This document shows, piece after piece, positions 28,625-61,810 of a stretch of 64,000 nucleotides of DNA. A program made the position numbers and the translations under genes. Source of the stretch: Ptychodera flava. Lineage: Eukaryota > Hemichordata > Enteropneusta > Ptychoderidae. The DNA lies in NCBI RefSeq assembly GCF_041260155.1, contig NC_091928.1:43865137-43929136 (forward strand), read 5' to 3'. Every line of letters starts with the position of its first letter. The stretch's first letter is position 1. The notes beneath the pieces are model-generated. The model saw only the letters and a list, made by a program, of their open reading frames with translations, had not been told where the DNA came from and did no database searches.

Positions 28625-29947
28625 GTGCATTTCTTTGTGTGATTTCCGACGGGACCGGCGTTTTATAATGAAACTGCGACCTTGCAACGGCAGCGGGTGA
28701 CCAGCGGGTATAGCGGCGCTAGCGCTGTGATTTCCTAAATTTAAAAATGTTTCAAACGATCACGGATTGACAGGAGATAGCCAATCACAGCGCTGCTACT
28801 TGTAAATCACTACGCAGTTGATTTTGACCAAAATCAACTGCGGAACTGTAAAGCAGAGACTCTTTCCATATCCTGTAGGTAAAATACCACCTGTATTTCT
28901 GCCTTGCACTATCTTCAAATGTTCCTCTTTTAACAAAAAATTACATTCAAATCACTGTTTAACCTTTTCCCGGACTTGAGAAATATCAAGGCAACAGTTG
29001 TAACAACGTTCCATAGTTTAATCGCAACGTACGTGTGAGACATGCCCACAAAATGTTCTTCACAATCGGCGTTCCCGTTAGTTGCATAATTTGCAAATTA
29101 TCTGTCCCAGATAAATCCGCGGGAAATGCGTTATTTTAGAGGCCTCGCGCTCATGTAAAGTGGGAAGAAAAAATATGGTACAAAATATTCACTTCTTCGC
29201 GAAAATAAATTGAGCTCCATGATGAGATATCTCCAAAGCGGCCAATTTATCGACAGCCTATACAAATCACTGCGTATGGACAACTGCGTGCACTGTGCCA
29301 GATTCGCAACATATACATGTGTTCACGGCCCGTAAAAAAATGAAGCTGGTGTTATATCGTATACAACCAAACTCAACTCGTCAAAGAATTTTGATTTTGC
29401 AATGATAGGACACATGTAACTGTCAACAATACGACAGCCATGTACAACTCTGAAACTTCAATGCAATAAAATATTTACATATAAATGCGACCTGAATCAT
29501 GTGAATAAATAGTTACATCATGAATAACCTTTCACAGCGTCATTTTGCAAAACACCGACACTCCCTCCCTGTAATTTCTGTCCGGTCCCTTAGCCTCATG
29601 GAGGCGCTCTAATAAGGGAACGATAGGGAGCGAGTGGCGCGAGTATCACATCTAACTGACCGTTTGTCAGATTTCTCTCTGCTATATATTTCAGTTTCTT
29701 TATTTCTTTTTTAATGTATCAATTTCTCTATTTTTCAGTTTCTTTATTTCATTTCGCTATTTCGCCGATTATAATTAGCCATAGCAATAACCTCCAGCTG
29801 ACCACTCCCTATATCACAATTCACTCCACAGATGCGGCATTGTGCTATATCGAGTTGTATACTCGCCCTCAGCGGAGGTTATTGCTTAAATACCAGGTCA
29901 CTAGGGTCAACGAAATATTTATTAGAAGACGGGGGTACCGGGTCATA
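28625..29947 (+). repeat. 5' flank duplicated upstream of genes C, D and E
   Basis: About 1.3 kb is shared in order with 43205-44594 (before D) and with 57418-58072 plus 60781-61810 (before E, where an insertion splits it). Landmarks are ttccgac..gaccgg, 'tagcggcgctagcg', a gttgattttgaccaaaatcaac palindrome (28818-28839 here), the 'gggcaactgcgtgcactg' relative and 'gcgacctgaatcatgtga'. It ends in a T-rich tract, a gctatatcg block and the DR3 element. It probably includes the promoter. Confidence 0.85.
29895..29909 (+). promoter_or_regulatory. DR3 nuclear-receptor element upstream of gene C
   Basis: AGGTCACTAGGGTCA is a direct repeat of two near-consensus half-sites spaced by 3, ending 38 nt before the ATG. 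DR3 is the classical arrangement for VDR/RXR heterodimers. The TATA-like gcttaaata lies just upstream (29884-29892). The site is identical in D, and in E it differs only in the spacer. Binding is inferred, not shown. Confidence 0.55.
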
Positions 29948-32900
29948 ATGGCGTTCTTTCGAGCGTCAACAGTGCGCTACCTCAACCGACCGAAATGCGT
30001 CACTATCGGGAACATACGACTCCGCTCCACCAACAACCTCGTTAAGGAAGCCGACGGTATCGACAGCAAAGATGTGAAATCCTTCGACGAAATACCAGGA
30101 CCCAGTATGCTACAAGTTATGAAAGCTACACTCAGCGGACAAATTCAGAAACCTTGGAAGCTGCTTCACCAATTCAAGCGAGATTACGGACCGATATGGA
30201 AGCAGAAGCTTGGATCGTTTGTTTTAGTGAACTTAACAGATCCAAAGGATTTCGAATTCGTGTTGAGAAATGAGGGAAAATATCCGATAAGGTTACAGGT
30301 CGATCCATGGTTAATTCACAGGCGGGAACGAAACCTCGGCCTTGGCGTCCTACTTCAGTAAGTACACAGTCCAAACGTGAATGTCAGAGGCTTTTAAATA
30401 GGGTAGGTCGATGTACGCAAGGGAGCTTTCAATTATTACGGCCGAAGGTGGGCCGGAAAAATCAAGGGGGGTGGGGGTGTATCACTCTAAACTTGAAAAC
30501 TGCAGGGAGGGTCATGTATTTTTCAAACAGCACAGAGGGTGGTTCACTTAATTTTCATAAGTATCCGTCCCGTCAAAAAGCCGTTTCAGTGCTCAAAAAT
30601 ATTTTCTGGGAAATAAAAATGATTCGCTGCATGATTTCATTCTCTGAAGTTATTTTACGTAAATCTGAATAAAAGCATAATAATCTGTCACCTGAACGTC
30701 TTGCCTTGGCAACTCTGAGGCTTGTCTTCTTGTAAATCGAGCTCACCGAGGGCTTAAAAAAATCCCATTTCTTACATATTAGATATATAACAAGTTTTGT
30801 CAGGGAAAATATTCAACATTTAGCTGTAGGCCGTAGACTATCATGAGAAGTGAATTAAAACTCCCACATGAAATTCCTGTATCATAATTGTTGTCCCCAT
30901 CTGAACTTTCAAACTGTTTGCCGGAGAGTATCTGATAAAATATTTTGTAAATTTTAAATTTATTCAATGTTTTCTGTTGAGTTTTTTTACATTTTGTCAT
31001 CTGTAAATGCATCCGAACTTTTTGGATCTGTTAGTCTGGTCCGTTCTGAATAATGTACTTCTTTTTGTCATTTTGCTGCGTGTCACAGTTACCACTGCAT
31101 TTAAAGGGGGCCGTCGCCGGAACTCTGCTCAAAGTTTGCCAGGGACCCCTACGACCGATGTAAACACTGTATCTAGGATACGTTGGCGATTGATGAAAGT
31201 TGAAACATGTTTGCTAACAATGAATATCGTAAAATTTAAATGTTGCAGCTATGCTGACGTGATGCGTCTGGATATCATGCATGAAGTAGATTGTTTGTAA
31301 ACAAGAAAGTCGCACAAGCGCAGTTCTGACGACGGACTCCCTTTAAACGTCTCCGCGTTGATGCTATTATGTCAGTTGTTTGATCCTGTGAACCAAAACA
31401 CGAAAATACAGTTTAAAACCAGTGTGATAGGTCATTTTGTGAGAGCTCTAAGATGAGAATCAAACCTCTTATTTTGTTCAGCCTCAGAAGGACTTCAACG
31501 TGTTCGCCTGATAAACTTTGGATGTCTTTTTTCTGATCCATTTTTATCAGCGAAGGAGCGGACTGGCAGCGCAACAGAGCTGCACTAAGCAAACGGATGA
31601 TGAGACCACGTGAAGTTGCCACATACAGTGACACTGTCAATGACGTCATCACTGACCTGGTCAACTCACTCGTAAGGGGAAGAAATAACTATGGCAAAGA
31701 CAACATTGTGCCCGATATAGAAAATACAGTCTTCAAATGGTCACTTGATTGTAAGTACATTTGTGAAGCAAAGATTCGCCATGATCAATAATGAACCATG
31801 GGAAAACGCAATGAGGCACTTTCATGAGCCCTGTATGACCTCTGTCATCTTAGTTCCGGTTGGATCTAGATGGCAGACAGTGAATGTATTTGTGCAGGTA
31901 TCTCTTCATGAATAAACAAACTTTCGCTTACCAGAGTCAAATAGCTCTGTAGATGATCTAAATGATAAGGACACGCGATAGGCTGCAGCAAGCTACTTGT
32001 ATTTCATTTACCATCTTGAATATGATCTTACAACAGAATATTGTACACTAGAGGGATGACTGAACATAATAAAATGTCGGAAAATGTCGAAAATAGCCTT
32101 GCGTTGACGTGGAAACTCATAGGCTTGTCTTTTGGCAGAAAATACAAGATTCTATATAGGTGTTTCGGTAACTGTAAAATCTTATTCTCCATTCCTATTT
32201 TACAGCGGCCTGTTCCGTTATTTTGAACAAGAAATTGAATCTCCTTGACGACAAACCACACCCAGAGGCACAAGAGTTCATCCAGGCTGTACATGATATG
32301 TTTGAATCCTTGTTGTGGTTGTTCGTAATCCCGGTTCATCTTCACAAAAGGTTCAACAGTAAACCTTGGAGGAAACAACTCAGAGCATGGGATACAATCT
32401 TTGCATTAGGTAATGTAGATTTGTGTAAAATCAATCACAGTCATTTCAAATCAATCAGATCTATCAAAATTAAAATCGTTTTGTGCTTTTCATTCCCTGC
32501 AGTTTCTTGAAGTAGTTCAAATCGTCTCAATCGTACAATTTTTGAATTGTTCCAAAAATCAGAAATAATGTAAATATTCAATCGAATGTATATCATTATG
32601 TCAGATTACCCTTTATGTACACAGATTTAGCCACCCTTGACCGGTTTGACAGGATACATAAATAACATACATGTATGGATATTTTGACGGCAATAGTTAT
32701 CTATACCTATCTGAGTACTCATGATAACCATATAATTATGCAAATAAGTATTTGAATATTCAGATATAGTACATAGGAAATTCATAATTCTGGGCACAGT
32801 CTCTAAGAGGGACTGTGTTCTGGGCAATAAGCATCAGTCTTGAGCAAACAAATATGAACCAATTAACAGTCAGAGAATCGGCTGTACGTTTATCTGATCT

Positions 32901-60780: not shown

Positions 60781-61810
60781 TGTGTGTAAGGGCAACTGCG
60801 TGCACTTTGCGAGATTCTGCTGGAGTTGAGACGAGGCACATCAAGCATGTGTTCACGGCCCAACCAAACTCACCTCGTCAGAGAATTTTAATTTTGCAAT
60901 GATAGACACACGTAACTCTCTACAATACAACAGGCTTGTACAACTCTGAAACTTCAACACAATAAAATATTTACATATGAATGCGACCTGAATCATGTGA
61001 ATTAATAGGTACATCATGAATAACCCTTCACAGCGCCATTTTGCAAAACACCAACACTCCCGCCCTGTGATTTCTGTCCAATCCCTTAGCCATATAGGGG
61101 GCGCTGTAATATGACATTAAACTGGTCCAATAATCTTTTTCATTCAAGGTAATATATTACCAGGTCTATGGGACATTTGAGATTTACAAATTTAAGTAGG
61201 ACAATAGAGCACGAGTGCTTCGAGTAACACATCTAATCGACAGTCCGTCTAACTCTTTAAGCCCCAAAGTCAATTTTTATCACCCTTAAAAAAATACACT
61301 CTAGCAATTCTTTTCAGATTTTTGCCAAATTTTGATGAAAACTGTAGGAAATAAAATATGTCTATTTGGTCTAAAATTATCCAAAAATTTCCTTGAAAAT
61401 CTCCAAAAACTGGTAAAATGTTGTACTAAAATTTTGGTGGGAAAAAATTACGGCACACAAAGGGTTAACAGCTTGACTGATTTTCTTTATTTATTTATTT
61501 ATGTATGAATTTTCTCTTTTTTTCTATTTCTCTATTTTTCTTTATTTTTTCATTTTGCTATTTCGCTGATTATAATTAGCCATAGTAATAACTGAGGACT
61601 GATAAACCACTCGATATAGCACAATTCACTCAATATATGCACTCGCTTGTTGCTCATATATATCGTGAATTTTTTTAAATGGTGAATTGTGCTATATATC
61701 GAATTGTGCTATATCGAGTTGCATACCCGCCCTCAGCGGAGGTTATTGCTTAAATACCAGGTCACAAGGGTCAACGAACTGTTTAATAGGAGACGAGGGT
61801 GTCGGTTATC
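60781..61810 (+). repeat. remainder of the duplicated 5' flank before E
   Basis: Resumes with gtaagggcaactgcgtgc and follows the C and D flanks up to the start codon, with extra sequence at about 61115-61460. It contains repeated 'gaattgtgctatat' blocks and the gcttaaata TATA-like sequence. Confidence 0.75.
61759..61773 (+). promoter_or_regulatory. DR3 nuclear-receptor element upstream of E
   Basis: AGGTCACAAGGGTCA. Both half-sites match those of C and D, and only the spacer differs (CAA versus CTA). It ends 37 nt before the ATG. Confidence 0.5.

Follow-up and report, generated by a model that had tools for sequence, protein, structure and literature searches.

A tandem array of mitochondrial-type P450 genes in the hemichordate Ptychodera flava, with five first exons hereafter labelled A–E, carries sense-oriented copies of the nuclear-receptor half-site RGGTCA in the last 75 nucleotides (nt) before most of its start codons, and we tentatively read these as a small receptor half-site cluster. 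The window, that is, the whole 64,000-nt stretch analysed (NCBI RefSeq assembly GCF_041260155.1, contig NC_091928.1, positions 43,865,137 to 43,929,136, forward strand), is numbered from its first letter. In the C/D/E subfamily, 3 nt separate two of the RGGTCA words, which together form a direct repeat with 3-nt spacing (DR3; other spacings are numbered likewise); in B, the half-sites are arranged otherwise, one alone and two as a DR8. Such words would most probably serve as a docking place, in the core promoter or the 5′ leader, for an RXR-type heterodimer or a receptor that binds half-sites, which would tune P450 transcription. The evidence for a cluster of receptor half-sites is modest and does not extend to the DR3 spacing, which is probably incidental to one subfamily. 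If real, the cluster would tie a tandem mitochondrial-type P450 array to a nuclear receptor in an animal that is not among the usual models, and would be useful for understanding how the sensing of sterols or toxins was set up beyond vitamin D signalling.

RGGTCA half-sites in the P450 leaders

The direct repeats, the TATA-like boxes and the remaining half-sites are as follows.

29895..29909, + strand: DR3 of gene C, AGGTCA-CTA-GGGTCA, 38 nt 5′ of the ATG at 29948
44542..44556, + strand: DR3 of gene D, AGGTCA-CTA-GGGTCA, 38 nt 5′ of the ATG at 44595
61759..61773, + strand: DR3 of gene E, AGGTCA-CAA-GGGTCA, 37 nt 5′ of the ATG at 61811
29885..29892 (C), 44532–44539 (D) and 61749–61756 (E), + strand: TATA-like CTTAAATA
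15308, + strand: CTTTAATT, the counterpart in B of the TATA-like CTTAAATA
29940..29945, + strand: third RGGTCA of C, −8 from the ATG
44523..44528, + strand: extra RGGTCA of D, −72
44587..44592, + strand: RGGTCA of D, −8; the corresponding place in E reads CGGTTA
15318..15323, + strand: RGGTCA of B, −48
15344..15363, + strand: DR8 formed by two RGGTCA of B, at −22 and −8; the −8 copy is TCAAGGTCA when its extension is included

An initial annotation of this DNA had placed AGGTCA-n3-GGGTCA at 29895, 44542 and 61759, 37–38 nt before the ATGs of C, D and E and beside a TATA-like box. The DR3 sites are real: an exact pattern scan of both strands returned the same coordinates and gaps, with CTTAAATA starting at −63, −63 and −62 and each DR3 placed between this box and the ATG. 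The pattern AGGTCANNNGGGTCA has these three exact matches in the window, all on the + strand, and no other copy on either strand; three matches were reached in 0 of 100 shuffles. All three also fit the definition of a vitamin D response element (VDRE) as two RGKTCA half-sites in direct repeat with a 3-nt spacer.

Counted in the sense direction over the last 75 nt before each ATG, RGGTCA occurs 0 times in A, 3 in B, 3 in C, 4 in D and 2 in E, at offsets of −48, −22 and −8 (B), −53, −44 and −8 (C), −72, −53, −44 and −8 (D) and −52 and −43 (E), and no antisense copy lies within 300 nt of these starts. At least two copies precede four of the five first exons, with C, D and E representing one lineage; the zero count of A is the same with its ATG taken as 11448 or 11449. 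Among 127,254 other 75-nt windows, two copies are found in 0.38% and three in 0.0024%, the leaders of B, C, D and E being excluded from this null and that of A retained.

Because the motif was chosen on C, D and E, it is A and B that serve as fair tests. B has two RGGTCA between −75 and −10, which is equalled by 0.6% of GC-matched windows and by 0 of 5,000 shuffles of the B leader. In a motif-blind comparison, RGGTCA was the sole hexamer, allowing at most one two-fold degenerate position, with at least two copies in both the B and C leaders, two genes whose synonymous distance of 1.8 is saturated. A shared word of this kind turned up in 2.1% of random pairs (n = 20,000), or 0.9% for non-simple words, and both fractions are somewhat low in that pairs less than 3 kb apart (by index) were skipped yet kept in the denominator; this null included the array leaders and left out the first 6 kb, occupied by a satellite. 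We took the half-site cluster as working mechanism because its prediction holds in B, though not in A. The density of half-sites before B, the older paralogue, is a more promising lead than the 3-nt spacing of the DR3.

Several observations weigh against a receptor cluster. A fails the half-site test outright, with no RGGTCA in its leader, and the excess in B is consequently one test out of two. E has lost the −8 half-site, and the −8 words of B, C and D adjoin the ATG, where start context may be their cause. Homology between the B and C leaders, as judged by ungapped alignment, was rejected, 71 of 300 shuffles attaining the same score.

A more ambitious version, which we consider unlikely, is an old receptor–P450 loop whose conserved unit would be not the DR3 but a sense RGGTCA cluster beside an A/T-rich box (CTTWAAT-N3-RGGTCAC), kept across the split between B and C/D/E at saturated synonymous distance, re-spaced in each subfamily and lost by first exon A. 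The composite pattern has exact matches at B, C, D and E only, but since it was built from these four places, exact matching does not test it; allowing two mismatches gives 5 matches against 1.97 expected.

Monomer sites of the NR5A/ERR type were also considered and rejected. The extended half-site consensus of these receptors is TCAAGGTCA, to which the −8 site of B is identical; the words of C, D and E differ in having no TCA extension, so that among the leaders only this B word fits. The window holds 3 copies of TCAAGGTCA against 0.71 expected, two of them away from the starts.

Three direct repeats of one origin, copied by duplication

C and D match each other on the same strand at approximately 78–96% identity, introns and flanks included, and C/E and D/E do so at approximately 75–92%; over exons 2–9, the C–D synonymous distance is 0.11 and the nonsynonymous distance 0.035. 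The identity across introns and flanks bears out a caveat of the initial annotation, that the three flanks are recent duplicates whose conservation is not independent. The three DR3 copies are one event multiplied by duplication. Since C, D and E are tandem copies, their DR3s count once and the fair chance question concerns a single occurrence, as holds in general for exact motif copies in tandem duplicates.

Within the three-way alignment of the C, D and E leaders, 14 of the 15 DR3 columns are invariant, as are 70 of 83 columns from 30 columns before the DR3 to the ATG (DR3 included), 197 of 282 over the entire aligned leader and 381 of 407 in exon 1. Of the 326 fifteen-column leader windows, 60 vary in no more than one column, as the DR3 does. 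The DR3 is conserved to the same degree as its surroundings, and there is therefore no evidence that it is singled out within C, D and E; its invariance was rejected as a sign of a specifically conserved element. It is true that the single change in E falls in the spacer only (CAA, against CTA in C and D), but the odds of hitting the spacer by chance are 3 in 15, and the observation does not count as evidence of conservation. C, D and E share the same opening 72 coding nt, even at silent sites (29948–30019, 44595–44666 and 61811–61882), with exon 1 differing further on; gene conversion or constraint could explain this identity.

Background of receptor-like repeats

Under a first-order model, the window is expected to hold 0.11 exact RGKTCA DR3s and 2.57 direct, inverted or everted repeats of any spacing from 0 to 8. 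With one mismatch allowed, 5 RGKTCA DR3s were found against 3.77 expected. Further perfect repeats include a DR4 at 16942, DR5s at 6966 and 20725, and the following.

2399–5146: satellite array, 170-bp unit repeated approximately 16 times, with six exact DR4s
59930–59967: perfect DR1s (at 59930 and 59955) remote from ATGs, GGGTCAAGGGTCA plus an inverted copy
62893–62905: perfect DR1 remote from ATGs, GGGTCAAAGGTCA

The six satellite DR4s demonstrate that receptor-like repeats can multiply without any promoter. Judged by eye, the sequence at the DR1s of 59930–59967 and 62893–62905 is hairpin-like.

Comparison with vitamin D response elements

The DR3 had initially been interpreted as a response element for the vitamin D receptor (VDR) with RXR, by analogy with vertebrate CYP24A1. 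This interpretation stands in part: the element fits a nuclear-receptor DR3, the P450s are mitochondrial-type, and the leader of B, a diverged paralogue, is also dense in half-sites of that type. The vertebrate CYP24A1 VDREs are, as here, RGKTCA-like direct repeats with 3-nt spacing near a mitochondrial-type P450 (mouse VDRE1, AGGTCAgtgAGGGCG; PMC11487884). Mouse Cyp24a1, however, has two VDREs upstream of its mapped start, at −156 to −171 and −267 to −282, where VDR binding has been shown (PMC11487884), whereas the array has one candidate site between the TATA-like box and the ATG. Should CTTAAATA be a TATA box, the DR3 would come after it but before the transcription start, within the footprint of the initiation complex; otherwise the DR3 may lie in the 5′ untranslated region.

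Specificity for VDR is not borne out. Type II receptors bind DR0–DR5 with high affinity and mostly in half-site mode, with VDR preferring DR3 (PMC6555819). Binding at variable spacing resembles the arrangement here, with several RGGTCA words at spacings of 3 (C, D and E) and 8 (B), although the spacing of 8 in B lies beyond the DR0–DR5 range of that study (PMC6555819), and A, one of the five first exons of the array, has no such word. Two gastropods are described as having no NR1I receptor and three and four NR1J receptors (PMC4388693), and the residues by which NR1J contacts bases are distinctive, ESCKAFFR (PMC2774871). The VDR/PXR of Ciona is described as unresponsive to vitamin D compounds (PMC2263054). 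A molluscan NR1J-beta has been reported to respond to okadaic acid (PMC5298971), which would be compatible with a xenobiotic-sensor version of the earlier idea. Among the literature matches listed there is no invertebrate DR3 at a mitochondrial P450, although one may still have been published. Other hexamers are preferred by DAF-12, a member of NR1J, a point that the literature search did not confirm.

Nor is the analogy with CYP24A1 well supported: besides the difference in VDRE position, among PDB sequences an ancestral CYP11A1 is a slightly better match (337.7 bits for C and 339.9 for B) than CYP24A1 (325.9 and 313.1 bits), so CYP24-like catabolism is not indicated over other mitochondrial families.

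Alternative explanations

The proposal that a VDR/PXR-like receptor (NR1I or NR1J) with RXR acts on the DR3 to induce a catabolic mitochondrial P450, in an old feedback loop, seems to us very improbable. A perfect DR3, the preference of VDR for that spacing, mitochondrial-type P450s and the okadaic-acid response of NR1J-beta speak for it. Yet a window-wide scan found no DR3 in the leaders of A and B, so the element is not kept in the older paralogues and its supposed antiquity is not borne out; nor does it show any excess conservation, and exon 1 of D is frameshifted as assembled. The position of the site, the base contacts of NR1J, the vitamin D insensitivity of the Ciona receptor and the best solved relative, which is not CYP24A1, count against such a loop as well. 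Chance with hitchhiking is a far stronger competitor, about equally likely as the receptor half-site cluster: an ancestral leader happened to hold AGGTCANNNGGGTCA, tandem duplication copied all of it, and the half-sites of B are coincidental, with no function. It gains from the single event behind C, D and E, from a DR3 no better conserved than its surroundings, from the number of receptor-like repeats expected in the window and their occurrence in the satellite and away from starts, and from the want of a half-site in A. What it does not readily accommodate is the half-site density of B, measured once the motif was fixed, and the motif-blind agreement of B and C, matched by approximately 1–2% of random pairs.

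The words near the ATG might instead be constrained at the RNA level, whether as context for the start of translation, as a motif of the leader RNA or as a signal for splicing, which we regard as unlikely. Every word is on the sense strand, as this would have it, and GTCAT[AC]ATGGCG is found at the ATG of A, B, C and D, with GTTATCATGGCG in E; by eye, several of the differences there would be third-position changes if the stretch were read in frame. But the upstream frame is stopped near the ATG in A, B and E (open reading frames (ORFs) start at 11427, 15345 and 61790), E has a 1-nt gap near the ATG, and the −53 and −44 words of C and the −48 word of B are left unexplained. The nearby stops in A, B and E also mean that the upstream in-frame stretch is not borne out as coding.

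P450 genes and surrounding features

The gene models of B and C are predictions from reading frame and splice sites.

11448–11884: first exon A, upstream of B
15366–15796: first exon B
15366..25921, + strand: P450 gene B, 9 exons, 521 amino acids
29948..42139, + strand: P450 gene C, 9 exons, 514 amino acids
44595..56144, + strand: P450 gene D, 9 exons; out of frame in exon 1, which has 409 nt (C: 410 nt), and open in exons 2–9
61811..62220, + strand: P450 gene E, of which exon 1 alone, open, lies inside the window

Both modelled proteins match the Pfam P450 family PF00067, at 340.6 and 359.9 bits. The mitochondrial type given to the array by the initial annotation is supported by comparison with the PDB, in which the 11 best sequences for C, and the 11 with E up to 1e-60 for B, are all mitochondrial CYP11A, 24A and 11B. 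In lophotrochozoans, the mitochondrial P450s to expect are CYP10 and CYP44, according to PMC4229089. The frameshift in exon 1 of D is a one-base deletion near 44816 relative to C and E, and may be a true pseudogene lesion or an assembly error. Five body-exon queries had no match between A and B; the two may serve as alternative first exons, each under a promoter of its own, unless A is an orphan.

Upstream of the DR3s of C, D and E lie inverted repeats.

29783..29886: inverted repeat of C, directly 5′ of the TATA-like box, 13-nt perfect arms; fold z −5.84
44410..44533: inverted repeat of D, same place, 39-nt arms at 82%, full-length self-match 71%; fold z −6.79
61592..61736: inverted repeat of E, same place, 36-nt arms at 83%; z −6.08 with 61598–61745 folded

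As single strands, all three fold far better than shuffles. They have diverged in length and loop, and resemble an old foldback insertion. The D palindrome terminates at the edge of the TATA-like box (44533), and part of that box may be the end of such an insertion.

Queries with the C, D and E leaders gave, beyond the three leaders, one weak 31-nt match (49911–49941). The exact leader pattern had 0 matches in prokaryote genome contigs and 0 in viral contigs, a protein scan of viral contigs gave 12 pattern stretches with no relative among them, and an Rfam scan of the window had 0 matches at gathering scores. The ORF at 63215–63475 has weak HTH_23 and PAX matches, both under the Pfam cut-offs, and is probably the start of a Tc1/mariner-type transposase. 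Approximately 190 nt 3′ of exon 1 of E is one further feature.

62409–62757: partial second exon-1 copy, start codon missing, with an identical donor site

Exon 1 and part of the intron seem to have been duplicated in tandem to give this copy.

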